Positions 13,630-55,606 of a DNA stretch of 64,000 nucleotides are shown one piece after another. Within the stretch, counting starts at the first letter, position 1; each line of letters starts with the position of its first letter. The translations under genes and the position numbers were made by a program. The stretch covers positions 1 to 64,000 of the forward strand of contig CALUJS010000002.1 in the NCBI GenBank assembly GCA_944321015.1. The letters run 5' to 3'. The notes under the pieces are model-generated. The model was not told where the DNA came from and did not search any database. It saw only the letters and a program-made list of their open reading frames with translations. The stretch is from an uncultured Phocaeicola sp. (GTDB lineage: Bacteria; Bacteroidota; Bacteroidia; Bacteroidales; Bacteroidaceae).

Positions 13630-15009
13630 TTAGCTCTTGATTTTTTCCTGATAGTACCGGTGGCGCTCGCGGATGTCGGACACGAAGCGGCAGGTTTCTT
13701 CGCCACGGAAATATCCGTTGCGGCACACCTCGTCGTTGAAGTAGCGTTCGTGGCTCTTCAGCTTCAGATATTTCTCCACGTTCCCCTTCCAGCGGGCCGG
13801 GTCGGCGCCGTATTTGCGGGCCAGCGCCACGGCATCCTTCACGTGGCCTTCGCCTGCGTTGTAGGATGCCAGAATGAAGTTGATGCGCTCGTCCTTGTCC
13901 TCAATGTTGGCAAAGCTCTTGTCCAGCCTTCCTATATATGTGGTGGCGGCCTTGATGCTCTCTTCCGGATCGGCCTCCTTGCCGGGGGGCATGCCCATGG
14001 CGCGGGCCGTGCGGGGCATGAGCTGCATCAGTCCCCGCGCGCCGGCCCACGACACGACGTCGGGATTGAAGTTCGACTCGGCATAGGCCAGCGAGGCCAG
14101 CAGCCGCCAGTCCCACCCGATTTCGGCCGCATATTTGCGGAACAAGTCGTCGTAGCGCGAGATTTTGCCGTCCTTTATCGAGAGGATGGAGCCGTGGGCG
14201 ATGTGCTTTTCCTGCTCGAAATAACGTCGCGCACTGGCCAGATAGGCTTTCGACGTCTTGTTTCGGGCAAACCATTCCGTGGCCGCCCGGGCCAGCAGCG
14301 GTTCGTCGGGACGCACGGCCCACGACGAGCGTTGGGCGAAGCTGACGCTCACGCTGATGTCCAGGTTGGTGAAATAGGTCTTGTTCACGCGGGCCACCTC
14401 GTTGTCGCACACCGTGTAGTCAATCTGCCCCCTGGCCACCTGCTCGATGAGGTCCTCTTCCGACACGCTGTCTTCCCTCACCGCATGGATGCGGATGCCT
14501 CCGCCCAGCTCCTTGTTCAGGTTCTCCAGGCGCATCAGGTAGCGGTCGGGCTTGATGTAGATGTCCTTGCCGGGCATGTCGGTCACGTCCTTCAACGCCT
14601 TTCGTCCGCCGCGTTGCACCAGCACCTGATGGCTGAGCGTCTCCTCGCCGCAGAACAGCAGGCTGTCCTTGCGCTCGTTGGTCACGTTCATGTTGTAGGC
14701 AATGATGTCTCCCTCGCCGGCCAGCAGTTTGCGCATCAGCTCTTCAGGGCTTGCGGCCACTTTCACCGTCAGCTCCACGCCCAGCGAGTCGGCGAACTGT
14801 CGGCACAGCTCGTATTGGAACCCCATCGGCTCGCCACGATAGAGGAAGTACGATGTCGAGCTGTAGAGCGTCAGCGCCACCAGCGTGTCGCGCTCGAGGA
14901 TGGCGGGCAGGTCGGTCGGGGGCGCTTCTTCGGTCGCAGTGTGTCGCCGTCCGCCGCAGGCCGTCAGCACACACACGATAAGGGTCAGCAAGGTCAGTTT
15001 CTTGTACAT
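13630..15009 (-). CDS. MltF-like membrane-bound lytic murein transglycosylase
   Basis: A 459-residue lipoprotein (lipobox VLTAC, Cys18). An N-terminal solute-binding fold (SBP_bac_3-like, about 40-270) is followed by an SLT transglycosylase domain. Catalytic Glu311 lies in AYAESNFNPD, followed by SWAGARGLMQLMPRTA and the NAGEGH motif. This matches MltF, which cleaves peptidoglycan to give 1,6-anhydromuramyl ends and is tuned by its binding domain. It heads a two-gene transcript with the downstream nuclease-helicase, an odd functional pairing. Confidence 0.93.
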   Translation of the reverse strand: MYKKLTLLTLIVCVLTACGGRRHTATEEAPPTDLPAILERDTLVALTLYSSTSYFLYRGEPMGFQYELCRQFADSLGVELTVKVAASPEELMRKLLAGEGDIIAYNMNVTNERKDSLLFCGEETLSHQVLVQRGGRKALKDVTDMPGKDIYIKPDRYLMRLENLNKELGGGIRIHAVREDSVSEEDLIEQVARGQIDYTVCDNEVARVNKTYFTNLDISVSVSFAQRSSWAVRPDEPLLARAATEWFARNKTSKAYLASARRYFEQEKHIAHGSILSIKDGKISRYDDLFRKYAAEIGWDWRLLASLAYAESNFNPDVVSWAGARGLMQLMPRTARAMGMPPGKEADPEESIKAATTYIGRLDKSFANIEDKDERINFILASYNAGEGHVKDAVALARKYGADPARWKGNVEKYLKLKSHERYFNDEVCRNGYFRGEETCRFVSDIRERHRYYQEKIKS

Positions 15010-43417: not shown

Positions 43418-43900
43418 ATGCATCTCGTTACCCAACTGTTGAAGAACATCATCCTGCCGATGGCAATTGTTTTGCTGTCGGCAGGATGTCATGCGCCCGA
43501 AGGATATCATGCCTTCCGTACGTTGCCGGTCGAGGGTTGGACACGGGGTGATACGCTTTGCTTTGCTCTTCCTCGGCAGGCTCATACCGTGTCATGTCGT
43601 GCCACGATCGAAATACGCCACACGGGGCGTTATCCTTACCGTTCGTTGTGGCTTCTTGTAAGTCACAACACAACAGATTCGCTGCAGTTCCGAACCGACA
43701 CCATTGAATGTGCACTCACCGACGCACACGCGCATTTTGATGGCACGGGTGTCAATGACCTTTATCAGAAGTCTTTTCCCTTGTCGCCCATGACCTTGAA
43801 AGCCGGCACCTCACCCATCATACGGGTCGTCCCGTTCATGAAAGACCGCTTCTTGCCCGGCATCACCGATATTGGTGTGCGTCTGACTCCCGCCCCGTAG
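43418..43900 (+). CDS. gldH: GldH-like gliding-motility lipoprotein
   Basis: A 160-residue lipoprotein (lipobox LSAGC, Cys24). The mature part matches GldH: EGYHAFRTLPVEGWTRGDTLCF, RHTGRYPYRSLWLLV and a C-terminal LPGITDIGVRL. GldH is required for gliding in flavobacteria but is also conserved in non-gliding Bacteroides, where its role is unknown. It starts directly at the end of ricT, so translation is coupled. Its stop is only 7 bp from the left direct repeat of the putative island. Confidence 0.9.
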   Translation: MHLVTQLLKNIILPMAIVLLSAGCHAPEGYHAFRTLPVEGWTRGDTLCFALPRQAHTVSCRATIEIRHTGRYPYRSLWLLVSHNTTDSLQFRTDTIECALTDAHAHFDGTGVNDLYQKSFPLSPMTLKAGTSPIIRVVPFMKDRFLPGITDIGVRLTPAP

Positions 43901-43906
43901 AGATAA

Positions 43907-43938
43907 GCCGGGAATAGGGCTCTTGTTCAAAAAGAAAA
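43907..43938. repeat. Left copy of direct repeat flanking the tubulin-like island
   Basis: A 32-nt sequence made of GCCGGGAATAGGGCTC and TTGTTCAAAAAGAAAA. It aligns with 54245-54274 at 28 of 32 columns (two mismatches, two single-base gaps), in the same orientation. It sits just after gldH and at the outer edge of the operon terminator. Confidence 0.7.
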
Positions 43939-43964
43939 GAAGGTGCGCTTTTTGACACACCTTC
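43929..43964 (-). terminator. Terminator of the tubulin-like operon
   Basis: On the minus strand, GAAGGTGTG pairs with CGCACCTTC (43956-43964 and 43939-43947, one G-U) around an 8-nt loop, followed by TTTTCTTTTTG. A strong intrinsic terminator 39 bp after the last gene. Confidence 0.85.
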
Positions 43965-44002
43965 TCCACTTGATTATTTTTTTGCTGCGATGGGGAGAAG
44001 CC

Positions 44003-44773
44003 TCATGCTTCTTCCTTTTCGCTCAACAGTTTCTCCAATTCTTCGTCCGAATAATCTTCCAGCGAACCGCCCTCTTCCTGCGAAGCCAGCAGTTCCTGTG
44101 CCACTTGGGCGGCAGATTTGGTCACTGTTTCGCAGTCCTGATAGGCCGACAGGTCGGCATTGGCGTCAACTGGTATGCCCTCTTCGGTAAAGTCCTTTTG
44201 GTATTGAGCGATGACGCGCAGGCATTCCTTGCGGAGACTCAGTTGTTTTTTCAGTTCCTTGATGTCATTGGTTGAAGCCAGCAGGCCGGTAGCAGCACCG
44301 ATACCGGCACCTATCAGCTTGTCTTTCTTTGAACCGCCTGCAGCCAGTCCGCCCAACAGGCCGGCACCGGTTCCGATGCCCACTTTAGCTATGATAGCAC
44401 CGCCTGACTTCAAGGCAGCCTTGAGGTGCTTGCGGGCTGTGCTGGGGTCACACACTGTACCGTTCTGGTCCACCAGACGGTAGGTCTTGCGGACGGTCTG
44501 GTCTTCGTTGCGGATGGTGTCGCCGTTTGCGTCCGTCTCTATCATTTCCACCACGCTGTACGAGGGCATCGTCTCAATGAGTTGTTTGGCCGAGATACTG
44601 TCTTCGGCAGCAACGGCCGTAGTGTCGGCGTTTTGTTCGCCTCCGCCCACGACACTTTGCACCGTCTCTGTAGCCTTCTTTAGTTTCTTCAAGAATCCCT
44701 GTGCCGAGGCACCCGTTGCGCAGAAGGTCATCAAGGTCAAGATGTAAACACTTCTCAAAATAATGTTTTTCAT
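44003..44773 (-). CDS. Exported glycine-zipper protein, last gene of the tubulin-like operon
   Basis: A 256-residue protein with a signal peptide ending ...ATGASAQ. A middle section (about 125-167) is packed with small residues in a GxxxG-like pattern (GIGTGAGLLGGLAAGG, then GAGIGAATGLLAS), i.e. a glycine zipper that could insert into or oligomerise in a membrane. The last 30 residues are strongly acidic (EEGGSLEDYSDEELEKLL). The first half contains short beta-type segments (YRLVDQNGTVCD). No catalytic motif is seen. It is separated from the upstream gene by 71 bp, the second-largest gap in the operon. Confidence 0.8.
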   Translation of the reverse strand: MKNIILRSVYILTLMTFCATGASAQGFLKKLKKATETVQSVVGGGEQNADTTAVAAEDSISAKQLIETMPSYSVVEMIETDANGDTIRNEDQTVRKTYRLVDQNGTVCDPSTARKHLKAALKSGGAIIAKVGIGTGAGLLGGLAAGGSKKDKLIGAGIGAATGLLASTNDIKELKKQLSLRKECLRVIAQYQKDFTEEGIPVDANADLSAYQDCETVTKSAAQVAQELLASQEEGGSLEDYSDEELEKLLSEKEEA

Positions 44774-44844
44774 ACGTTTAAAAGTTTTAATTGTTAATAT
44801 AATGATTAGTTGTAAATTGCTATGTGCATGAGTTCGGACGTTGA

Positions 44845-46425
44845 TTATTTGGTGTACATTTTCACACGGAACTGCTTCTTCATGTATGTGCCTCGCGCCT
44901 GGTGCATCAAGTCCTCGAAACTCATGTAGACAATTTTCTGGGGCGAATCTTCCTTCGGACGGAAAAGAATGCCCGTAGGCAGGTTGGTGCGGTTCAGTTC
45001 GATTTCGGCAATGCCGTTCTCACCCGATTGGCCCACCTGCTGGAAATTCATCTCCTCCTTCTTCAAGAGACGGCGGAAACGTTTGTCCGACGAGAAACTG
45101 TTAGACGACAGAGGCGTGAATCCCCGGTAAATCCACACCTCGACACCGGGAATTGGATTACCCTCGGAGAAGGTCTTCCACTCGACGAACGTGAATTTTA
45201 CTTGCAAGTCCATGCTCATTAGCAGGCCTTTCATCAATTCGATACGTTTCAGGTAATAGTCGTCCGGATTGAACCGGCGGAGCTGTTCAATGTACTCAAT
45301 GGCGTATGAGGCATACTCGGCCACTTCGGCCTGCGTGGCGTGCCCTTCCTTCTTCATCTTGGCAATTTGCTGGAAGCAACGGGCGGTGAGGTTGTCATAG
45401 TACGCACACGAGTCGCACAGCGAGATGGCGGCCCGGATGTTCGGCCGGAGGTCGGATACAACCGATTCACCCGTCTGTAGTGCTTTGTCATAGGCGGCGC
45501 GGGCCTGCTTGTACTTGCGCATTCCGAAGAGGCGGCTACCCTCGTCCATTAGGGCGCAGCACTGGCTGGTGAATACCTCCGTTTCCATCACGATGGGCAG
45601 GACAACGTAGCGGCGCAGGATGCGGGGTTTCAGGTCGCCTATGTAGATGGACAGCAAGTTGGTACCATCGCCGTAGATCGTCACATTGGAGAGGTTGGCT
45701 AGGTACATTTGGGTTTCCTCCAGTTTTCGGTCGACTCTTTCAATTTCATCCCATTCGGGCGCATTCTCGGCTAATTGGCCTGAATCCATGATCTTGTCCA
45801 ACTCGGCTTGACGTTTCTGCAATTTATCCAGTTGGTCTCGCACCTCGTCTAGCTTGGCCACGGGTATGACAACGCTCACTTTCAATAGGGAGGCGTCTTC
45901 TGGGCTTTCCTTCATGGTGATGCGTGCACCCAAGTCGGACGGGCATTTCACTTGCAGTGATTTCAGCGTGGATGTAAACTCTAGAGCGGCTTCGGTCTCG
46001 CTTTTATAGACATCGTTCACCATAGTCTGGTCGTCGTAGCGGATGGGGTTGGCCACTTCTTCCAGGCGGTAGGCCTGCAGATAGTCCGTAGCGTTCAGCG
46101 AGGCCAGTAACGGGGCGCGGTAGGGGTTGCCCATACGGCTTACCTCCAGCTTGGGCTGTTTGGTGTCGCGCACGTCGATGATGACGTAATAACGGTAGTT
46201 CCCGTCTGAGTCCTTTCCGCGGAGGTCTACGGTGGCAGGAAATGCCTTGTTGACTACGACGATGACCAGATCTTTGTGCTTCGATAATATGAGTACGCCT
46301 CGGTTGCCTCCCAAGTCCTCAAAACAGTCGTCTTCCGGCGAACGATTCAGTTCGTTGGTACCCAACTGCGCCCACGTAGGCAGGGCCAGCAGGCAGAGGA
46401 ATATCATCCAAAGTATTCGTTTCAT
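44845..46425 (-). CDS. Large exported protein of the tubulin-like operon
   Basis: A 526-residue protein with a signal peptide (MKRILWMIFLCLLALPTWAQ). The N-terminal third is strand-rich (GVLILSKHKDLVIVVVN, YYVIIDVRDTKQPKLEV). A charged coiled-coil-like helix follows at about 195-245 (LDEVRDQLDKLQKRQAELDK). Then comes a TPR-like segment (EGSRLFGMRKYKQARAAYDKAL) and a C-terminal beta region. It resembles a periplasmic scaffold; I know of no named family. It lies 25 bp after the NTF2-like gene. Confidence 0.8.
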   Translation of the reverse strand: MKRILWMIFLCLLALPTWAQLGTNELNRSPEDDCFEDLGGNRGVLILSKHKDLVIVVVNKAFPATVDLRGKDSDGNYRYYVIIDVRDTKQPKLEVSRMGNPYRAPLLASLNATDYLQAYRLEEVANPIRYDDQTMVNDVYKSETEAALEFTSTLKSLQVKCPSDLGARITMKESPEDASLLKVSVVIPVAKLDEVRDQLDKLQKRQAELDKIMDSGQLAENAPEWDEIERVDRKLEETQMYLANLSNVTIYGDGTNLLSIYIGDLKPRILRRYVVLPIVMETEVFTSQCCALMDEGSRLFGMRKYKQARAAYDKALQTGESVVSDLRPNIRAAISLCDSCAYYDNLTARCFQQIAKMKKEGHATQAEVAEYASYAIEYIEQLRRFNPDDYYLKRIELMKGLLMSMDLQVKFTFVEWKTFSEGNPIPGVEVWIYRGFTPLSSNSFSSDKRFRRLLKKEEMNFQQVGQSGENGIAEIELNRTNLPTGILFRPKEDSPQKIVYMSFEDLMHQARGTYMKKQFRVKMYTK

Positions 46426-46450
46426 GTCGGTAAGTATAAAGGTTTAGCAA

Positions 46451-47470
46451 TCAGAGGTCAAAGGCACCCAAGGTGGAAATGTCGTTGTCCGGCTGCTGGT
46501 GTACGTCGCCCACCCATTCGGGCTGCCAGGTGCGTACGTGTATGATTGGGTCGCCACCGTCATCTGGAAATTCCCACAGTAGGAAGAGGTAGCCCTCGTC
46601 GCTATATGTGCTTGACGACCATTCCTGGTGCAAGCGCACGCCGTACATGTTAGGGTCGACTTTTGAGCGGGTAATGCCAGCGCAGCCGCCCTCTTCTCCG
46701 TTGTCGCCGATTTCGCTGAACTTGACGTTAATCCACTTGTTGCGCAGAAAGGCTTTTTTCAGGTTGCGGATGTACTGCTCTTTGTTTTGCTTGGTGTATT
46801 CCACCTTTTGCGACACAAAGTTGTTGTCGGCACTGGGACGGACGGTGACAACCTTACCGGTGATGATGAGCGCGTCATCGCTGAAGTAGCGGTTAATCAC
46901 GTCGATGTCCTTCTGGTTGTAGGCCGTGCGGAAGCGTTCAATCTGCTGCATGATAATCATCTGCTTTTCCTTTTCCACCACGCTGCCACAGTGTTCTAGG
47001 CTTTCGGAAAGCTGGGCGTCTAGGGCGAGGCGAAAATCGGTCAATTTGCCTTGGGAGTCAAATTCGACTATGGCTTCCTGATAGGTCCCCATGCCGAAGT
47101 CCTCGCCTTCGGGTGTAATAATCAATGGAATGTGGCTCACCATCATTGAGCCGTCCTTGAATACCCAGCAGCGTTCCACTACTTCTTCGTCGTCGCAGTA
47201 GAACGGTGTGACGGCCCACAGGCGCAAGAGCGAGCGCAGTGAGAACTCGTCCATTGGTAGGCTGTTTGTCGTCAGAATTTCCTTGGCCTGCTGGGCGCGA
47301 TTGATTTCGGTCAGCACTTGGGCCAGATTGCGTTGGGCAGCCTCTAAGCCGATAGGGCAGTCCACGCCTTCGTCGACAGTGAGGGTGACCTCCACCGCTT
47401 TACAGTCGGTTGCTCCCCATATCCCTATCAGGGCCATGGCGAGCATTGCACGTATCAGTATTCTCTTCAT
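46451..47470 (-). CDS. Exported protein with NTF2/SnoaL-like domain
   Basis: A 339-residue protein with a signal peptide ending near DCKA. The region from about 175 to the end resembles an NTF2/SnoaL-like cone fold: RFRTAYNQKDIDVINRYFSDDALIITG, followed after an insertion by strands LHQEWSS, YLFLLWEF and HVRTWQPEW. The first half is helical. NTF2-like domains bind small ligands or act as protein-interaction modules; no catalytic residues are evident. It is the fifth main gene downstream from the GTPase end of the operon. Confidence 0.78.
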   Translation of the reverse strand: MKRILIRAMLAMALIGIWGATDCKAVEVTLTVDEGVDCPIGLEAAQRNLAQVLTEINRAQQAKEILTTNSLPMDEFSLRSLLRLWAVTPFYCDDEEVVERCWVFKDGSMMVSHIPLIITPEGEDFGMGTYQEAIVEFDSQGKLTDFRLALDAQLSESLEHCGSVVEKEKQMIIMQQIERFRTAYNQKDIDVINRYFSDDALIITGKVVTVRPSADNNFVSQKVEYTKQNKEQYIRNLKKAFLRNKWINVKFSEIGDNGEEGGCAGITRSKVDPNMYGVRLHQEWSSSTYSDEGYLFLLWEFPDDGGDPIIHVRTWQPEWVGDVHQQPDNDISTLGAFDL

Positions 47471-47499
47471 ATTTTTGTTGTGTTATTAATATCGTAATG

Positions 47500-48180
47500 T
47501 CATTCCACCTCTACGCCGATGGCGCCGCAACCACGGTAGTTGGCTACGCTGTCGGATTGGTTGGTCTTCACATTGAGGCGGTCGGGACCGGGTGTCAGTA
47601 TGGCGACGACTTTAGCTTCCTTGTTGTAGATAATCAGGTAGTACTTGTCGGGGTTGTCCAGCGAGGCGTAACGGTCGTATCCTTTAATTTTGCCTTCGCC
47701 CTCCATCTGTTTCACCTTCTCGGCCATGGCATAGTAGTCCGTAATCCCGGCCAACAGATTGATGGCTTCGGGTAAGACGGGTTGCAGCTTTTTTTCGACG
47801 GCCGGACGATTCTCATTCTCAATGACGACGGCGTTGTCGGTGGCGATAATATCTTTTTTTCGGACGTAGACGAAGTAGCGGAACATGTTGGTGCCGCGCG
47901 GCATGGACAGCGGAGTCCACAGTTCTTTGCGGTTGTTGACCACCAGATTGGCGCTGTCATTCATTTTCCTTTGGGTAGCTACCCACTTGTTTACCTCGTC
48001 GAATAAGCGCTCTTCGGCATAGATACGGGCATCTTCTTCAGTAGGAGCCGTAGACTCTGCGTAGATGTACTGCGAACTCTTCTTGATTTTATTTATCTGC
48101 TTCTTGATATCGTCGGTTGTCTGCCCCAGCGCGGTGGTCAGGGAGAGGAAGCAGAGGGTGATGGATAGTAGTATTCTCAT
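47500..48180 (-). CDS. Exported protein of unknown function, tubulin-like operon
   Basis: A 226-residue protein with a signal peptide (MRILLSITLCFLSLTTALGQ). The mature start is a basic helix (DDIKKQINKIKKSSQYIYAE), then an acidic helix (EEDARIYAEERLFDEVNKWV). This order, a Tyr/Glu-rich strand followed by a helix annotated in other proteins as LPP20- or DUF-like, is suggestive only. The C-terminal half is beta-rich and ends ANYRGCGAIGVEVE. It lies 11 bp after the preceding gene and was surely co-transcribed. Confidence 0.75.
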   Translation of the reverse strand: MRILLSITLCFLSLTTALGQTTDDIKKQINKIKKSSQYIYAESTAPTEEDARIYAEERLFDEVNKWVATQRKMNDSANLVVNNRKELWTPLSMPRGTNMFRYFVYVRKKDIIATDNAVVIENENRPAVEKKLQPVLPEAINLLAGITDYYAMAEKVKQMEGEGKIKGYDRYASLDNPDKYYLIIYNKEAKVVAILTPGPDRLNVKTNQSDSVANYRGCGAIGVEVE

Positions 48181-48191
48181 TGCACTATTAA

Positions 48192-49304
48192 CTATGGGTT
48201 ATTCATGAAAAAGTTTTCGGTGACGTTCTGCAAGGGGGTGAAAGCGTAGAGTGTTCCCGCCATGATGCTGTTGCCCTGCAGCACGCTGTATGGCACAATT
48301 AAGCTGAGCGTGTGGCAGTAGGCCAGTTTGGTATTCACGGCAAAGAGTGTAGCGGACACGCCGGTGTCAGTGCGCTCTTTGATGCCCAGGTAGAGACGGC
48401 AGCCTGTGGTGTTGCAATAATGGACGAACTGCTGGAGGGTGACGGACAGAGGTTTGCGAATGCCTCCATACTTGTCGAGTGTCAGGCGCAGGGAGACCAT
48501 ATGTCGGGCGCACCCCGTCAGTAGCAGGTTGTTGAGGGCTTGGTTGGGATGTGTGGGGTCTGTCAGGATGCGGTAACCGCCGGGACACGTATCGTCGGGG
48601 CATAAGTAAAGTCGTGCACATATCAGGTCACAGAGGAACGTCCCGCCGTCGGCCACGGCCACGTTGTCCGCTGTCGAGACGGGGCAACTGCGCCAGGCTT
48701 CGGGCACAGTGTCGACCGGTAGGGCAGAGGCGGTGCGCTGGAGGTCGCGTTCGAGCATCTCTTCCAACTCGATCAGGTTGGCGCCCAGAAGAGTCTGACA
48801 GTCGGCGGAGATGCGGAGGGAGACCTGTCCGCTGCCTTTGCCCCACTCCATTAGGTAGGTCCTGCGTTCCTGCTCGTTGAGACTGAAGGGTGTCTCGGGC
48901 GTCAAAGTCTTGAGCATGGTGGCGTTGCCTTTCAGGAAGATAATGTCTTTCCGACTGGTGGCTTCGGCTTTGTCTTCGGGTTTCAAAACGTCCTCTTCGA
49001 GGGCGTAGCGTTCGATGAAGTCGAGCACAGGTCGGACATCGTGGGCTGCCGCCCAAGCGCTGTCGAAGAGCTTGTAGCCGATGTGTGACACGTCGCCATA
49101 GGCATTGGTGCGCACGCGCAGGCTGCGGCCGCGATAACTCCACGTCGCGTCATAATCTGCATCTGGTTCCAGCTTGTCCGGTAGGTTCAGCCCGATGCTG
49201 TGGGCCAAGCGCTCCAGATTAGGCACTTGGTAAGTGGGGGTAGCATTCACCGCCAAGGTGAACACTACCCATAACCATACCATATGGCAACGCAGGGACG
49301 TCAT
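48192..49304 (-). CDS. Exported protein of unknown function, tubulin-like operon
   Basis: A 370-residue protein with a hydrophobic leader (CHMVWLWVVFTLAVNA) that is probably a signal peptide. It has eight or more cysteines in the mature part (for example CDLICARLYLCPDDTCPGG), suggesting disulphides in the periplasm. Early sequence WSYRGRSLRVRTNAYGDVSHIGYKLF is strand-like. No recognised domain. Its start overlaps the upstream MORN-protein gene by 4 bp (ATGA), so the two are translationally coupled. Confidence 0.75.
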   Translation of the reverse strand: MTSLRCHMVWLWVVFTLAVNATPTYQVPNLERLAHSIGLNLPDKLEPDADYDATWSYRGRSLRVRTNAYGDVSHIGYKLFDSAWAAAHDVRPVLDFIERYALEEDVLKPEDKAEATSRKDIIFLKGNATMLKTLTPETPFSLNEQERRTYLMEWGKGSGQVSLRISADCQTLLGANLIELEEMLERDLQRTASALPVDTVPEAWRSCPVSTADNVAVADGGTFLCDLICARLYLCPDDTCPGGYRILTDPTHPNQALNNLLLTGCARHMVSLRLTLDKYGGIRKPLSVTLQQFVHYCNTTGCRLYLGIKERTDTGVSATLFAVNTKLAYCHTLSLIVPYSVLQGNSIMAGTLYAFTPLQNVTENFFMNNP

Positions 49305-49915
49305 GGCTTCACGACAGTCTGGTTCCCATCGTGTTTCCAGTAGCCCAGGCCGCTGATGCGCCCGTCGCGGAACTCACCTTCGAAAGTGTCGCCGGGCTGT
49401 GCCACGAAATCTTTCGAGGAGACGATTTTGTGTTCCTGTTTGTAGGTGATGGTGCCGTAGCCATGAGGCTTGCCGTTCTTCAGTTCGCCGGTGTAAGAGC
49501 CGTAGCCTAGGTCGACGGTACCGCGTTTGGAGTCTGCCTGGGAAGCTTTAGGTTTGGGCGCGGGGACTTCGGGTTCCGGGTTTTCGGGAGCGACGACTGC
49601 AGTGTTGACGGGTGCTGGAGAAGCAACCGTTTTCGGTTCTTCCACAACAGGCTTGGGCTCTTCGCCCGCATTCAAGTAGGAGTAGACGCCATAGCCTCCA
49701 CCGCCTAATATGACAGCAGCCGCGACAATCAAAGCAATCTTCTTCCCATTACCGTTGCCTTCGTCGTTGTTGTTCTTGTTTTTATGTTTGCCCGCAGCTT
49801 CACGCAAGGGCTGGTGGCAGTAAGGGCATTCGAACTCCCCGCCTGCTTCAATCTCAAAAACTTCTTTGTAGTGGTCGCAATCGATGTTTGCGCATGCACC
49901 TGTTTTCTTTGCCAT
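49301..49915 (-). CDS. Zinc-ribbon / transmembrane / MORN-repeat protein
   Basis: A 204-residue bitopic membrane protein. Cytoplasmic N-terminus: a zinc ribbon with Cys8, Cys13, Cys30 and Cys33 (CANIDC, CPYC). One transmembrane helix is at about 59-81 (ALIVAAAVILGGGGYGVYSYL), then a Pro/Glu/Ala-rich linker (about 85-130) and at least two MORN-type repeats (YGSYTGELKNGKPHGYGTI and FEGEFRDGRISGLGYWK). MORN repeats in other systems bind lipid or protein at membranes. This layout could tie the cytoplasmic GTPase to exported partners; that is inference. Confidence 0.88.
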   Translation of the reverse strand: MAKKTGACANIDCDHYKEVFEIEAGGEFECPYCHQPLREAAGKHKNKNNNDEGNGNGKKIALIVAAAVILGGGGYGVYSYLNAGEEPKPVVEEPKTVASPAPVNTAVVAPENPEPEVPAPKPKASQADSKRGTVDLGYGSYTGELKNGKPHGYGTITYKQEHKIVSSKDFVAQPGDTFEGEFRDGRISGLGYWKHDGNQTVVKP

Positions 49916-49934
49916 ATTCGAAATGTTTATTTAG

Positions 49935-50099
49935 TTATGATTCTGATTCCTTTTCTTGTTGCAATCCTTCTTTTAGTGAAAGTGGCTTGCGTACTCCGAA
50001 CAGTAAGGGCACCTCGTCTTCTTTCAGTTCGGATGAAGCGTGGCCACCATGCGGACGCAGCAAAATCCCGACGCACGGCAGCCCGGAAGACGTGTGCAT
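49935..50099 (-). CDS. Probable small ORF coupled to the tubulin-like gene (TGATG)
   Basis: A 54-codon frame whose ATG shares its A with the TGA stop of the tubulin-like gene (TGATG), the classic coupling overlap. It reads MHTSSGLPCVGILLRPHGG, then ELKEDEVPLLFGVRKPLSL and a charged end (KEGLQQEKESES). It fills most of an otherwise unexplained 183-bp gap in a tightly packed operon. No family is recognised. A chance frame of this length is possible. Confidence 0.5.
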   Translation of the reverse strand: MHTSSGLPCVGILLRPHGGHASSELKEDEVPLLFGVRKPLSLKEGLQQEKESES

Positions 50100-53000
50100 C
50101 AGGAGATGCGCATATCGTCGTCGCAGAGCTTCTCGGCCGCCTTGTTGAAGGCCACGAAGACCGGGTTGTTCTCGTTACCGTTGACCAGCGGGAGCAGGAC
50201 GTTGTCGAGAGTTTCGCCCAGTTTCAGCATCAGTTGCTTGCGCTTCTCAATGTGCTTGTAGTTGGTGTCCATTTCCTCGATGACGGTTTTCTTCAGTGCG
50301 GCGGCATCCATGGCGCGGGTCATCTTGCTCAGTTCCTTGAGGGTGGAAACGATGTCTTCTCCGACAGGAATCCAGCGGCTGACGCGGCCCATGCGGTTCT
50401 TCTCGCCGGCAAAGCACATGGTCTTCTCGCCAGTTTCGGGGTCTTCGCGGGGTACGATGATACCGTCCAAGGTGTAGGCCATGAGGACAATCGGCATGAG
50501 GTCTTTCTCGGACTCTTCCTTGTTGCGGTTGAACAACCCCGGCAGTGGCTTGGCGAAACTTTCGGTGTGCACCACCATGCGGTTGACCTCGTTGCGGGTC
50601 AGGATGTCGTACTTCTCTTTCAGCACGCGCACGTTGTCGACGTAGCGCAGGGGGAATCCGCTGTGTGCGGTGATGACAACTATCTGATTACTCTTGAAGT
50701 TGACCGACACGTCGTTGTTCTTGTTGAACGGAATGGTTCCCGATTCGCCGAAGTCCTTGATGAAATCGTTGCGGAAGGTGTCGTCTTCTTCGTAGAGCGG
50801 CAGCGAAATTTGGATGATTTTCTGGTGGTTGGCAGCTGTTTCGGGGCTACCCTTTCCTTCTTCCGAACCGTTGAAGGTCAGGAAACTTTGGGCGGCGTTG
50901 TAGATTTCCTTGACGAAACGTTTGCGCTTTTCGGGCGTGCTGCAGTCGGAGTTGCGCAATTTGTCGAGGATGTTGACATTGACGAGGCGCATATTCGCGT
51001 TCTTCTTGGAGTATTCGTTCAGTTCGGCGCGCGACTGCTCTATGCAGACCTTCAGTGTCACTTCTTGCAGGGTGCTGAGGTTCATCTTTTTGGCCAAGGT
51101 GCTGAAAGAGGCGTTGGCGGCACCCACGGCTTTCACGATGTCGGCGCGCAGGCTGGCGGCGTGCTGTCGCTGGTTTTCTTGATTCTTGAGGAATCCTAGC
51201 ACTGTTTCGCGCACTTGACGCGGGTCGTATTCCTTGACGACTTCGCCCCGCATGTCGTTCTCATCGGCATCGCTCAACTTGCACTTGTCTTCCGCTTGTT
51301 TCTTCATGATATCAGCAAACTCCTCGTATACCCGCATCAGCGGTTCCACGCTGTTGGCGTTGAGGAGCGTCAACATGTTCACCACCTCGAACAGTAGTTT
51401 GACGGCATAGCTGTAGGCAGTGATGGTGGTCATCAGCGTCAGTTGCTCGCGTTTGGCGTCGGCAAAGCGGCCAAACGTCTTGGTAGAGGCGTTGGTGACA
51501 GCATCGCGCAGCCAACCGATGTTGTTCCAGTCGCGGCGGATGTCCTCCAACTGGGCGTTCAGGTCTTCGTTGAGATAGGCCGTGCGCTTGTTGATCTTCT
51601 GTTTGTATTGGTCGATGCGCTCCTCGCACTTGGCCGATAGAACCTTGATGTATTTGTGCACTTCGATGATTGACAGTTCGCCCACTTTCCATTTGGCAAA
51701 CAGGTTGTTCTCGATGCGGCGGCAAATCTCTTCGGCAAACCCTCCGATTTGCGACTCGTAGTTGGCATAGAATTTTTTCACGCCGCATCCCCGGTACATG
51801 CTGTCGAAGAAGTTCGTGCACAGTTGGTTGAACTCTTCGTACCATTCTTTCTTGGGGCATTCGGCCTGTACGTCCTGTTTGTAGCGGTCGACATACATTT
51901 CCCAACCTTGCACGATGGGCTTCCAGTTGGCGACGTGCTTCTCGATGGAAGGCAGTGGTTTGCTCAGGGTCAGGTATTCTTCACTTAGCAAGTTGCTCTC
52001 CAATTCGGCGCTTTTCTCCACCAATTCCACATAGTCCTTGCCGACCATGTCTTCCGCACACTCAATGTATCCTCGGGCATCGTCCCACAGTCCGTATAGC
52101 ATTTGCATGGATGCCTGACGGGCTAAGTGATAGGCTCCGTACTCGACGACTTCTGTCTCGGGATATTCAATACGCTTCACGCCAAAGGTCATGAATTTGC
52201 GGCTGTGGACAGCCTCGCCCGCTTCGTTGGCTTCGGGCAGGAGGCCGTTGTTTTCATTCGTCTCCAGACGCGCCATCTTTCCGCCGTTCATTGCCGAAAC
52301 AACAATCTTCTGGAACAGGAAGTCGCCCACGATGTTCGGCAGGACGTCGAACAGATTAACTTCTTTGCCAGCCTCATTGACGTTCGTATAGAGGTAGGCC
52401 ATGTCGAAGGCGTCCTGTCCTTTCAACAAGCGGCGCACGTTGCCATACTCGTCAGTGTTGCCCTTTACGTCGGTGGGGAAATAACGTCCCACAGACATGG
52501 CGTTCAGCTCCAACAGGGCGGCATAGCCGTTAGGCTGGTAGAAGCGGTTGCTGTCTTCGCCGCCGGTGATTTGGATAATCTTCTCGGGAACGTAGAGGTA
52601 AAGCTGGATTTTGAACTTGCTGCGGTCGTCGCCCGTGCGCTGGAACTCGTTGCGGATTTGCGTCACGGCGTCTATGATGGACCCGGAACCCGTGCCGCCA
52701 CCCAGTCCGGCACAAATGTGGAAAGTCACGTCGTCCACGTTCTCCTGTTCCTTCAACGCCCTTACGCGGGCATGTACCTGCCCGATGAACGTGTTCTGCG
52801 GCAAGCCGCACATGTTGTTGGCGATTAGCATGCGGCCGAATCTTCTGCGCTGTCCGCCGATGCCTTCGTTGATGATGGCGCCGATGCCTTCCTTCAGCAA
52901 AGCCTCGTCGCGACGGTTGATGAAAGCGTTAATACCGGGATATTGGTCGAGATTGTCCAGCACGCCGGCACCAATGCCGTTGATGGATAAGCGCTGGGCG

Positions 53001-53203
53001 GGCGACAACTGCACCGATGTGCCCAGCACCTGCCAACGTTCTTCGTTGTTCAGGTCGGTCAGACTCGAATCGACGTACAGGTACTCGATGTGAGCATCGC
53101 CTTCCGGGGTGTTCGAGCGAAATTCTTCGTAAATACGTTTACGCAAAGCGCACAAGACAGAACCGCCCGTGCCTCCTAATCCGATAACTAAATGGTTTGC
53201 CAT
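50099..53203 (-). CDS. Tubulin/FtsZ-superfamily GTPase (Tubulin_2 / FtsZl1-like)
   Basis: A 1034-residue cytoplasmic protein. The N-terminal 300 residues are a tubulin/FtsZ-type GTPase domain: first glycine loop HLVIGLGGTGGSV (4-16), then YVDSS, and the diagnostic phosphate loop GGGTGSG (168-174) in CAGLGGGTGSGSIIDAV. A segment EVNLFDVLPNIVGDF is the best candidate for the catalytic T7 region but is not certain. About 330-820 is mostly long charged helices; the end is mixed. FtsZ is about 350-400 residues, so this belongs to the large bacterial branch, Tubulin_2 or FtsZl1, which has been predicted to act in membrane remodelling. It is second in the operon, after a membrane protein. Confidence 0.9.
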   Translation of the reverse strand: MANHLVIGLGGTGGSVLCALRKRIYEEFRSNTPEGDAHIEYLYVDSSLTDLNNEERWQVLGTSVQLSPAQRLSINGIGAGVLDNLDQYPGINAFINRRDEALLKEGIGAIINEGIGGQRRRFGRMLIANNMCGLPQNTFIGQVHARVRALKEQENVDDVTFHICAGLGGGTGSGSIIDAVTQIRNEFQRTGDDRSKFKIQLYLYVPEKIIQITGGEDSNRFYQPNGYAALLELNAMSVGRYFPTDVKGNTDEYGNVRRLLKGQDAFDMAYLYTNVNEAGKEVNLFDVLPNIVGDFLFQKIVVSAMNGGKMARLETNENNGLLPEANEAGEAVHSRKFMTFGVKRIEYPETEVVEYGAYHLARQASMQMLYGLWDDARGYIECAEDMVGKDYVELVEKSAELESNLLSEEYLTLSKPLPSIEKHVANWKPIVQGWEMYVDRYKQDVQAECPKKEWYEEFNQLCTNFFDSMYRGCGVKKFYANYESQIGGFAEEICRRIENNLFAKWKVGELSIIEVHKYIKVLSAKCEERIDQYKQKINKRTAYLNEDLNAQLEDIRRDWNNIGWLRDAVTNASTKTFGRFADAKREQLTLMTTITAYSYAVKLLFEVVNMLTLLNANSVEPLMRVYEEFADIMKKQAEDKCKLSDADENDMRGEVVKEYDPRQVRETVLGFLKNQENQRQHAASLRADIVKAVGAANASFSTLAKKMNLSTLQEVTLKVCIEQSRAELNEYSKKNANMRLVNVNILDKLRNSDCSTPEKRKRFVKEIYNAAQSFLTFNGSEEGKGSPETAANHQKIIQISLPLYEEDDTFRNDFIKDFGESGTIPFNKNNDVSVNFKSNQIVVITAHSGFPLRYVDNVRVLKEKYDILTRNEVNRMVVHTESFAKPLPGLFNRNKEESEKDLMPIVLMAYTLDGIIVPREDPETGEKTMCFAGEKNRMGRVSRWIPVGEDIVSTLKELSKMTRAMDAAALKKTVIEEMDTNYKHIEKRKQLMLKLGETLDNVLLPLVNGNENNPVFVAFNKAAEKLCDDDMRIS

Positions 53204-53242
53204 ATCTTATACATTATTATAATATTACATTTACAAATAAAA

Positions 53243-53851
53243 TCAAAAATCATCGTAGCGTTTGGGACGCGCCTTGTGACGACGGCTGCTGCCAGTACGT
53301 CCGGTGCGCGATGAACTTGTCCGTCGACTGCCGCGCCCGGTTTGCTCCATCGTCTTGATGACCACGAAAGATGCCATGACGACAAACAATGCACTCCAAC
53401 CCACACGCCGCCAGATGAAACGCGTCATGTAAGTACGTAACTCGTCGGCCATGGCCGAAGCGATGTTCAACGGCGTATGGCCTGTAAAGTCGGTCCCGCC
53501 GATAAAGTATCCGACCAGCGGCCATTCGTCTTGTATCAGTTTTAAAATGCCTTGACTGTCATCTTCGTCAAACTCCACATATTCGGGCACGTCACGCACC
53601 CAGCCATTGATGGCTGTTTCGACATCGGTGCTATATGACCGTATGGTGACGGCTCCGCAAAGCAAGATGGCTTGGAACGACAGAAACAGGAACAGGACGG
53701 CCCCCGTCACGTAGCTGACGATTGTGAACGTGCGCTGCGAGAACCATGAATGGATAATGAAAAACATCAGGGCAACACCGATGGCCGTCAGCAATATTCC
53801 CAGAAAGAGATTGCCGATGGAATAAGAGATGATATTGAACAAAGCTCCCAT
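53243..53851 (-). CDS. Three-helix membrane protein with basic C-terminal tail
   Basis: A 202-residue inner-membrane protein, first gene of the operon. Likely TM helices are at 12-37 (LGILLTAIGVALMFFII), 42-70 (VTGAVLFLFLSFQAILL) and 150-168 (GWSALFVVMASFVVIKTM). The loop between the second and third (about 80 residues, acidic) should be on one face. The last 35 residues are very basic and Ser/Arg-rich (GRGSRRTSSSRTGRTGSSRR) and probably cytoplasmic, suited to binding acidic protein surfaces or lipid heads. I infer a membrane anchor for the GTPase encoded 39 bp downstream. Confidence 0.82.
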   Translation of the reverse strand: MGALFNIISYSIGNLFLGILLTAIGVALMFFIIHSWFSQRTFTIVSYVTGAVLFLFLSFQAILLCGAVTIRSYSTDVETAINGWVRDVPEYVEFDEDDSQGILKLIQDEWPLVGYFIGGTDFTGHTPLNIASAMADELRTYMTRFIWRRVGWSALFVVMASFVVIKTMEQTGRGSRRTSSSRTGRTGSSRRHKARPKRYDDF

Positions 53852-53907
53852 AAGATGGCAGTGTTTAAAATGACACTTACTAAATCGTTAACTTAACTCT
53901 AACGCCA

Positions 53908-53915
53908 CAAAGGTA
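53908..53915 (-). promoter_or_regulatory. -7 box of the tubulin-like operon
   Basis: Minus-strand TACCTTTG, 56 bp upstream of the first gene. The nearest TTTG (53931-53934) is only 15 nt away, so the -33 element is unclear. The rest of 53852-54003 is AT-rich with no gene seen. Confidence 0.5.
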
Positions 53916-54003
53916 GCATTTTCCGGAAAACAAAATAAAAAAATCTAAAAAGAAAAATGTATTTCCTCAACATTTGCAAGGAAGCGCATTTTGTTGACAA
54001 TCT

Positions 54004-54177
54004 CTAGCTGCTTGTACCTTTCTTGAAATTGCCACTACGCGTAAGGTCTATTGGTTTGATAAATAGACTAGTAGACAATCTCTTTACTTTACGATTAAGG
54101 GTAAAACGCAATTTGACGTTGTAAGTTCCATCGGTTTTCTGCTCGTTCTTCTTGATTTCCGCCTTGATAGTCAACAT
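54004..54177 (-). pseudogene. Truncated tyrosine recombinase: Arm DNA-binding domain only
   Basis: A 57-codon frame: MLTIKAEIKKNEQKTDGTYN, then VKLRFTLNRKVKRLSTSLFI and DLTRSGNFKKGTSS, then TAG. This matches the start of Bacteroidetes tyrosine integrases (Arm_DNA-bind_5: strand, DGTYNVxIRxTxNRKxKxxSTSxFV, then LTxSGxIKN). The core-binding and catalytic domains (R..H-x-x-R..Y) are absent, and nothing similar follows downstream. It lies between tRNA-His and the operon, the usual place for an integrase of a tRNA-integrated element. Confidence 0.82.
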
Positions 54178-54244
54178 TTTAAACTAAGAATTAATTAGTC
54201 AACAACTGGCGGAAAGTACTTGTAAATGCAGTCTCGAATGGTAG

Positions 54245-54274
54245 GCCGGAATAGGACTTTTGTCAAAAAGAAAA
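54245..54274. repeat. Right copy of direct repeat flanking the tubulin-like island
   Basis: GCCGGAATAGGACTTT followed by TGTCAAAAAGAAAA, aligned with 43907-43938 at 28 of 32 columns. It is directly next to the tRNA-His terminator stem, including its T-run. Confidence 0.7.
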
Positions 54275-54309
54275 ATCGCCAAATCTTTTTAAATCAAAGA
54301 CTTGGCGAT
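54265..54309 (-). terminator. Terminator of tRNA-His
   Basis: On the minus strand, ATCGCCAAGTCT pairs with AGATTTGGCGAT (12 bp, one G-U; plus coordinates 54298-54309 and 54275-54286) and is followed by TTTTCTTTTTG, 12 bp after the tRNA. Confidence 0.88.
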
Positions 54310-54321
54310 AACTTCTTTCCG

Positions 54322-54396
54322 GGTGGCAGATGGGACTCGAACCCACGACATTCAGAACCACAATCTGACGCTCTAACCAACTGAACTACAGCCACC
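54322..54396 (-). tRNA. tRNA-His (anticodon GTG)
   Basis: Cloverleaf read on the minus strand: acceptor GTGGCTG with CTGCCAC plus the extra G-1 opposite C73 that marks tRNA-His, D arm GTTCAGTTGGTTAGAGC, anticodon stem TCAGA/TCTGA with loop TTGTGGT (anticodon GTG), and T arm GTGGGTTCGAGTCCCAT. CCA is not encoded, consistent with the CCA-adding enzyme in the window. One odd point is an apparent U6-U67 mismatch in the acceptor stem. Confidence 0.93.
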
Positions 54397-54496: not shown

Positions 54497-55606
54497 TTAG
54501 AAAAAGTATTCGTTTATGCCCGAATTGTGCTTCTCGAAGAGCCTGCGGCTTTCCTTTACAAACCGGTTCAGACGTTGCCGTTCCGCTTCGGTCAGAGTTT
54601 TCGGCGGGCGGGCTGCCGGATAGATTTCATATTGCTTCCTGCCGCTCAAAACCGGGCGGGATGTCCACACCAGGCTGTATGCACAGTGGCTCATGCGGGT
54701 GCCCTGCGGGTCTTTCGTCAGTTGCAGACGCACCATCAGGCCGCCGTCGGTTCCGGCTTTTGACATATTACTAATGTAATTGCCCAGCGAATACACCACG
54801 AGATGTCGCTCGCCGATCTCGTCGGTCAGCACTTCCAAGGGTTGCACCACGTGTGGATGTGACCCGATGACGTGATCCACTCCCTGCGCTATCAGCCAGC
54901 GGGCCAGACGGCGCACCGAGTCTTCCGGCAGGTCCCGATATTCCACACCCCAATGCATGCACGCGATAATCACATCGGCCCCTCTGTCGTGCGCCCGGCG
55001 GATATCCTGCTTAATCTGCACGGTGTCAATGTAGTTCACCACCTGAGGCGCCCTGACTTTCAGCCCGTTGGTGCCATACGTATAGTTCAGGAATGCGACG
55101 CGCACGGCTGAAGGTTCCATCCAATCGCCCTTTCTCATCTCGCACACAAGCGGATAGCGACGGATGCGCTCCTCTGCGTTCCGGTAAGTCCCCGCGTGAA
55201 CCACATCCGCCGAGTCGAGCATGTGCAGGGTGCGTTCCAGTCCTTTGCTGCCTCCGTCCAGACAATGGTTGTTGGCCGTCAGCAGGACGTCGAAACCGGC
55301 CTCCTTGATGGCGGTCAGGTATTCATCGGGCGCGCTGAACTGCGGATAGCCGCGATAAGGCTTTCCGGCAAAGGTCACCTCCAGATTGGCCACGGCCAGG
55401 TCAGCCCGTTCTATCTCCGGTTTCACCCGTGCGAAACAGGAATCGTAACAATAGGCCGACGAGGTGCGCGCCGCGTCAATCTGAGCCTGATGCTGCATCA
55501 GGTCGCCGGCAAAAAGCAAATCGACGGTTTGGGCTGTCGATAGGCCGGACAGCGCCATTCCCGTCAGGAGCGCCGTCGCTCGTAATAGTTTGGACAAATG
55601 TATCAT
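54497..55606 (-). CDS. CapA family exported protein (metallophosphatase-like)
   Basis: A 369-residue protein with a signal peptide (MIHLSKLLRATALLTGMALSG..STAQ). The CapA/PGA_cap fold is clear: LLFAGDLMQHQAQ at the start of the mature part, VANLEVTFAG, LLTANNHCLDGG, MHWGVEYRD and GSHPHVVQP. These Asp/His/Asn motifs match a calcineurin-like active site. The family is named for poly-gamma-glutamate capsule synthesis in Bacillus, but lone members in Bacteroidetes have no known capsule role. It is transcribed alone. Confidence 0.92.
   Translation of the reverse strand: MIHLSKLLRATALLTGMALSGLSTAQTVDLLFAGDLMQHQAQIDAARTSSAYCYDSCFARVKPEIERADLAVANLEVTFAGKPYRGYPQFSAPDEYLTAIKEAGFDVLLTANNHCLDGGSKGLERTLHMLDSADVVHAGTYRNAEERIRRYPLVCEMRKGDWMEPSAVRVAFLNYTYGTNGLKVRAPQVVNYIDTVQIKQDIRRAHDRGADVIIACMHWGVEYRDLPEDSVRRLARWLIAQGVDHVIGSHPHVVQPLEVLTDEIGERHLVVYSLGNYISNMSKAGTDGGLMVRLQLTKDPQGTRMSHCAYSLVWTSRPVLSGRKQYEIYPAARPPKTLTEAERQRLNRFVKESRRLFEKHNSGINEYFF

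Follow-up and report, generated by a model that had tools for sequence, protein, structure and literature searches.

A 64,000-nucleotide stretch of an uncultured Phocaeicola genome (hereafter the window: bases 1–64000 of the 128-kb contig C2, in an assembly of 2.97 Mb and 105 contigs) carries, between gldH and a tRNA-His gene, eight minus-strand genes that form a tubulin-like Tubulin_2 operon, with an integrase remnant of 171 bp at the right end. The interval is edged by an imperfect direct repeat, copy A next to gldH and copy B behind the tRNA-His terminator. We read this arrangement, with a probability of about one half, as the product of three histories: the scar of an old tRNA-His element, an operon exchanged independently of it, and a rearranged junction at gldH. 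The repeat, the remnant, the tRNA-end duplications in relatives, the positions of the operon in other genomes and the conflict between its gene trees were observed directly. An earlier sequence-only reading had described a single tRNA-His-linked island, in which an element carrying the operon duplicated its attachment (att) site and later lost its recombinase; as a whole, that interpretation was partly supported.

An integrase remnant behind tRNA-His

The scar and the two repeat copies are laid out as follows.

43904–43938, no strand: repeat copy A, the T-tract of the operon terminator and about 24 bp up to gldH; identical to copy B in 30 of 35 columns
54007–54177, minus: tyrosine integrase remnant, the first 57 codons, arm-binding domain only
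54193–54204, minus: TGTTGACTAATT, likely an arm-type site of the integrase, a role suggested by intact relatives, which have similar copies, doubled, at each end
54242–54274, no strand: repeat copy B, the tail of the tRNA-His terminator and about 22 bp; a homologous stretch lies behind tRNA-His in G001
54275–54309, minus: hairpin of the tRNA-His terminator, which probably came with the element
54321–54395, minus: tRNA-His(GUG), where the lost element probably integrated; its 3' end occurs once in the genome

The scar is AT-rich (35% GC, against 54% in the adjoining operon). The remnant was recognized by Pfam as Arm-DNA-bind_5 (27.3 bits, cut-off 22.6) and its catalytic domain is absent; no further integrase piece reached a meaningful score between 43000 and 54500. 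A search of 200 relatives yielded 24 integrase matches in 23 genomes, own included, and at 17 of the 24 loci, again with our own among them, a tRNA gene lies 140–240 bp in front of the integrase (seven Met, six His, three Arg and one Gly). Eight intact elements were examined for their far ends. Six of them carry a second copy of the tRNA end, 10.7 to 21.2 kb off, one having further copies at 14.6 and 31.5 kb. The copy spans the anticodon arm to the tRNA 3' end (about 43–54 nt) in five of these six, and the sequence behind the tRNA differs. Since the 3' half of the tRNA is duplicated and the sequence behind it is unshared, the usual recombination site of this integrase clade is, to judge from these ends, within the tRNA. 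The terminator and tail behind the tRNA would then normally come with the element. The sixth, G080, which has the closest full-length integrase (78% identity over the fragment), repeats an entire tRNA-Arg with its terminator and a tail of about 40 nt. No second copy of the tRNA-His 3' end was found in our genome or window, at up to 3 mismatches in 26 nt.

A scar of the same kind occurs in a genome of the same genus, G001, where a homologous terminator comes behind tRNA-His, along with a B-like tail and doubled arm sites (score 35 against a shuffle maximum of 22); next come about 10 integrase codons read by eye, and a tRNA-Pro lies about 300 bp behind tRNA-His. There is no operon at this place, and the Tubulin_2 operon of G001 is on a different contig. 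The scar therefore does not need the operon. Taken together, these comparisons support the entry of an integrase-bearing element at tRNA-His, followed by its decay.

Two further loci concern the same tRNA. A Phocaeicola coprophilus record (L141, 11355–11539) contains two tandem tRNA-His genes, possibly a trace of duplications at this tRNA. In a contig of a metagenome-assembled genome (L139, 9630–11102), tRNA-His precedes an integrase relative that aligns nearly full length; it is 54% identical to that of G080, is listed as two open reading frames (ORFs) and is apparently the start of a tRNA-His element. We found nothing in the literature on attachment sites of tyrosine recombinases or integrases at tRNA-His in Bacteroides.

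Distribution and exchange of the Tubulin_2 operon

The operon reads from gene a to gene h on the minus strand and is given here in map order.

43936–43967, minus: terminator-like hairpin at the operon end
44003–44773, minus: gene h, 256 aa, signal-like N-terminus, weak glycine zipper
44845–46425, minus: gene g, 526 aa, weak TPR match below cut-off
46451–47470, minus: gene f, 339 aa, weak DUF4440 match below cut-off; the best conserved gene of the operon
47500–48180, minus: gene e, 226 aa
48192–49304, minus: gene d, 370 aa
49301–49915, minus: gene c, 204 aa, MORN repeats (Pfam MORN, 23.0 bits, cut-off 22.5) and one hydrophobic segment by hydropathy
50099–53203, minus: gene b, tubulin-like GTPase (Tubulin_2, FtsZl1; Pfam PF13809, 170 bits, cut-off 27; GGGTGSG loop)
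53243–53851, minus: gene a, 202 aa, three hydrophobic segments

A Tubulin_2 relative was present in 8 of the 150 relatives searched, own genome (G000) included. The eight-gene order is kept in G012, G002, G001, G078, G046 and G033; G003 has partial operon copies and was excluded from the comparison. In the distant operons genes g and h were assigned partly by position and size, at identities of 14–20%, and genes c and d of G001 were detected by tblastn only. The neighbourhoods differ in all six other Bacteroidaceae, the operon lying at unrelated loci. No tRNA-His was found in the stretches fetched around these six operons, a scan that included two tRNA-free stretches of other contigs; the sole tRNAs there were two in G012, tRNA-Met at about 20 kb and tRNA-Gln at about 38 kb past the operon, which in this genome begins at a contig end, so that one flank only is visible. 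Nine recombinase queries gave no match in the operon regions of the relatives. In all the relatives examined the operon is thus not seen as the passenger of an island, as far as these flanks tell, and the proposal of a tRNA-His-linked operon island found no support in the comparison, the operon being elsewhere in six genomes, without tRNA-His or a related integrase. A fructokinase-like gene flanking the G046 operon has many scattered homologues in its genus.

Phages and plasmids were considered as carriers and discarded: viral contigs held no relative of genes f and b, phage records none of gene b, and plasmids none of gene f. The one distant match was a 28% relative of gene b over 89% of its length (L251, 9001–11661), on a 1.09-Mb Paraburkholderia replicon.

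Genes of the operon do not share one history. Between G033 and G046 the tubulins are 69% identical, against 39% for gene f, 15–36% for the other genes c to h and 31% for the transmembrane gene. The reverse is seen between G002 and G033 (genes c to h 38–83%, gene f 83%, tubulin 23%) and between G000 and G046 (genes c to h 35–71%, gene f 71%, tubulin 27%), and the transmembrane gene gives a mixed signal (37% between G000 and G033). The trees conflict in the same way: that of the tubulin pairs G046 with G033 and G000 with G012, that of gene f pairs G002 with G033 and G000 with G046. In approximately unbiased (AU) tests the tubulin tree rejected G000+G046 (p-AU 2.9e-8) and G002+G033 (2.7e-34), and the gene f tree rejected G033+G046 (5.9e-73); two branches of the tubulin tree are long. 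These conflicting identities and trees argue for an exchange of operon parts across genera, which is well supported, and the simplest reading would place a break between the tubulin and MORN genes. In the last operon gene of G078 (L239, 8378–9496) a PEGA domain (41 bits, cut-off 20.8) takes the place of the weak glycine zipper of the window gene, which again points to exchanged parts. The tubulin gene of G046 (L240, 12732–12796) contains one internal TAG stop, which splits it into two ORFs, and this copy may be broken.

We tentatively propose, with a chance of about one in three, a two-part system: the transmembrane protein and the tubulin-like GTPase would form a cytoskeletal half, and the genes from MORN to glycine zipper an envelope half. 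The halves would recombine independently across genera near the tubulin/MORN border, spread by homologous or illegitimate exchange without a recombinase of their own, and settle at scars such as dead tRNA-linked elements. If so, half-wise exchange would fit diversifying selection, for example against phages or competitors. Operon parts with conflicting histories also offer a way to ask which half sets specificity and what selection drives the exchange.

Two neighbourhoods at the gldH junction

Two protein genes flank the interval.

43418–43900, plus: gldH, left flank (Pfam GldH_lipo, 104 bits, cut-off 27)
54497–55606, minus: PGA_cap-like gene, right flank, the conserved neighbour of tRNA-His

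The names rodA, mdh, psp1, folD, matE and fructokinase are those we presume for these genes from recognizing their translations. gldH is present in 14 of the 15 genomes of the genus, and tRNA-His lies within 1.5 kb of it in none of the 13 other congeners. In six of the 13, rodA is near the end of gldH (within 1.5 kb in G001, G012, G014 and G005, just beyond in G013 and at about 6 kb in G011); it is absent from this 1.5-kb range in the remaining seven. In our genome rodA sits on another contig, followed by mdh. Seen from the other side, none of the 13 congeners with a true tRNA-His match (19 loci examined) has gldH nearby, G003 having been set aside as it matched only weaker, different tRNA stretches; the PGA_cap gene adjoins tRNA-His in 12 of the 13. 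Another 80 PGA_cap loci, from named genomes and 53 of them with tRNA-His, showed no gldH, no psp1 (a neighbour gene of gldH) and no operon gene in the flanking DNA examined, which reached up to 10 kb on each side. In G011 a single contig carries gldH (at 0.97 Mb) and tRNA-His (at 3.47 Mb), separated by 2.5 Mb.

We read the left edge as a rearrangement junction, since the nearest relatives have rodA close to gldH. On these gene orders the flanks would have separate neighbourhoods of origin, brought together by a history that must include a rearrangement. That gldH and tRNA-His were once neighbours, as had been supposed, is unsupported (0 of 13 gldH loci, 0 of 13 tRNA-His loci, 0 of 80 PGA_cap loci), and the empty site with a single repeat that this supposition predicted between them was not found in 13 congeners. 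The two genes may nevertheless have been adjacent in this species just before the operon arrived. An inversion joining gldH to tRNA-His, with rodA as its other product, was likewise unsupported, no rodA-like ORF being seen beside mdh at the loci of seven relatives (tRNAs unscanned there).

Repeats of the form CGAGCG(2–4 bases)ATATG occur in the window at 2621, 2665, 10209, 15121, 39786, 39808 and 55736 and in L093 at 14587–14673. They stand in tandem at rodA/mdh and near PGA_cap/matE, where gene order differs from that of relatives, and may mediate rearrangements.

A unique repeat pair at the two edges

The direct repeat announced by the sequence-only reading is real. In the 35-column alignment of copies A and B, 30 columns match, 3 are mismatched and 2 are gaps; the shared terminator tail, a T-tract, makes up 11 of the columns and similarity continues for about 24 columns past it. 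The positions given for the copies also held: gldH ends with its stop codon at 43900 and copy A starts a few bases beyond, at 43904, copy B ends at 54274 against the terminator stem (54275–54309), and the truncated integrase, 57 codons with an Arm-DNA-bind_5 match (54007–54177), lies just inside it. The two intergenic gaps align at a score of 23, the maximum in 1000 mononucleotide shuffles being 18, for a pair that had been selected beforehand by the earlier reading. The portion past the T-tract scores 14, a value reached by 1 of 5000 shuffles. An ungapped repeat finder missed the pair because the copies differ by indels.

The gapped core pattern matched our genome at the A and B sites only, and a looser pattern at one extra site, inside an ORF. 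Of 3737 pairs drawn from the terminator tails predicted over about 150 kb of the genome (87 in number), A–B scored highest, with 23 against 14 for the runner-up. A common terminator flank, which the earlier reading had named as a way in which it could fail, is ruled out by this pattern search and these pair scores. The repeat as a conserved downstream part of the operon was also ruled out, since no A-like sequence follows the operon by eye in G046, G002, G012, G001, G033 or G078, and none was found at 1 mismatch in the operon regions of relatives.

A repeat, a tRNA and a broken integrase resemble a textbook island edge. The repeat alone would have misled, because intact elements point to another recombination site. 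Copy A is probably not the right attachment site (attR) of the remnant's integrase, because the genome has no second tRNA-His 3' end, and the repeat is, on the comparison with intact elements, probably not an insertion mark. Most likely, copy A arose as a stray duplicate of the tail that follows a tRNA-His terminator, rather than as a recombination core.

A proposed composite history and its alternatives

We infer from these data the order of events, the origin of copy A and, as set out below, the function of the operon. An element would have entered tRNA-His, and its worn end would now consist of the restored tRNA, an element-borne terminator, the tail (copy B), the arm site and 57 integrase codons, the element itself being dead. 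The eight-gene operon would have travelled separately, arriving here with no integrase of its own, and would be exchanged among Bacteroidaceae by recombination, partly as two modules (transmembrane and tubulin genes; MORN through glycine zipper). Its left edge against gldH would be a rearrangement junction, and copy A would have been left by a long duplication as in G080, or by recombination at the shared T-tract.

Several points weigh against this composite history, and its weakest is the origin of copy A. The only two copies of the repeat in the genome stand exactly at the two edges of the stretch, which is what an att site duplication predicts, and the operon's place, immediately inward of the integrase remnant, is the one expected of cargo. 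The far end of G080 does duplicate a terminator tail, and this duplication of whole tRNA, terminator and tail keeps a weaker att idea alive as a possibility. Two of the eight intact elements, G156 and G013, had no second tRNA end in the fetched DNA beyond weak matches (in G013 a partial match to a tRNA end only). The clades submitted to the AU test were picked after the identities had been seen. That A and B are the left (attL) and right attachment sites of one integrative element, which carried the operon in behind tRNA-His and lost its integrase, would account for the unique pair at both edges, the remnant just inside B and the tails at both ends of the element with the closest full-length integrase. 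We nonetheless hold it to be unlikely, at roughly one chance in five. The duplicated site of the integrase relatives lies in the tRNA (six of eight duplicate the tRNA end) and no tRNA-His 3' copy exists at the left edge or elsewhere in the genome; gldH and tRNA-His are neighbours in no relative examined; and G001 has the scar without the operon while six genomes have the operon without the scar. An element at tRNA-His whose recombinase was lost is thus retained from the sequence-only reading, its entry and decay being backed by the 17 tRNA-linked loci of 24, but neither the operon as its cargo nor A and B as its duplicated att site.

Slightly less probable still is that A and B are alike only through the same T-tract after terminators, with coincidence for the remainder. 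The 11 T-tract columns of 35 and the one shuffle in 5000 that matches the remainder's score of 14 leave room for it, as does the score of 13 between copy A and the tail behind the tRNA-His of G001, below the shuffle maximum of 18. It sits poorly with the gap between 23 and 14 among the 3737 terminator-tail pairs, with the roughly 24 similar columns past the T-tract and with a core pattern found nowhere else in the genome. An assembly chimera at the gldH edge, whose flanks were never neighbours, is very improbable: although the assembly is in 105 contigs and gldH and tRNA-His are far apart in G011, the junction lies inside a 128-kb contig, at 43.9 kb, and a genuine rearrangement would account for the different neighbour that rodA has elsewhere in the genome, on another contig.

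The operon proteins and comparison with known systems

The match of gene b to PF13809 is N-terminal (residues 5–364), which identifies the operon, by its family assignment, as a Tubulin_2 (FtsZl1) operon; the GTP-binding loop, GGGTGSG in the window protein, reads [ASC]GGTGSG in six aligned relatives. Signal-like N-terminal segments were seen in genes e, g and h by crude hydropathy. None of the eight products matched a vWA domain in Pfam at E up to 1, searches of defence families gave nothing above noise, and solved structures gave no significant match. By inference, the operon most likely encodes a membrane-anchored GTPase filament system acting on the cell envelope with exported partners. A literature search returned nothing on a tubulin-like operon with MORN in Bacteroides.

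The scar can be set beside NBU1 in tRNA-Leu and NBU2 in tRNA-Ser, elements of Bacteroidetes that the portion of PMC5704250 available to us places at tRNA 3' ends with tyrosine integrases. It differs from NBU-like elements in having 57 integrase codons left and a far edge without a tRNA copy, and in that Pfam recognized no mobilisation or transfer protein among the operon products of the window. It resembles them in the tyrosine integrase gene directly behind the tRNA, here a remnant only, and the intact relatives of the remnant share with them the tRNA 3' half duplicated at the far end.

The operon is closest to those of the FtsZl1 family, a predicted membrane-remodelling machine (Makarova and Koonin 2010, PMC2875224), and a member from Bacteroides caccae is named in a figure legend of that paper; a Tubulin_2 gene cluster of Synechocystis has been tested for phototactic motility, according to the excerpt of PMC9880817 at hand. 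Pfam recognized no vWA, kinase or OmpA gene among the eight products here, unlike in FtsZl1 operons, and the accessible text of PMC2875224 describes a vWA gene as typical of most members, not all; exchange of two operon halves across genera finds no mention in that text. What the window operon shares with the FtsZl1 operons, as that text presents them, is the Tubulin_2 domain, the GGGTG(S/T)G loop, membrane and exported neighbours, and a patchy distribution.

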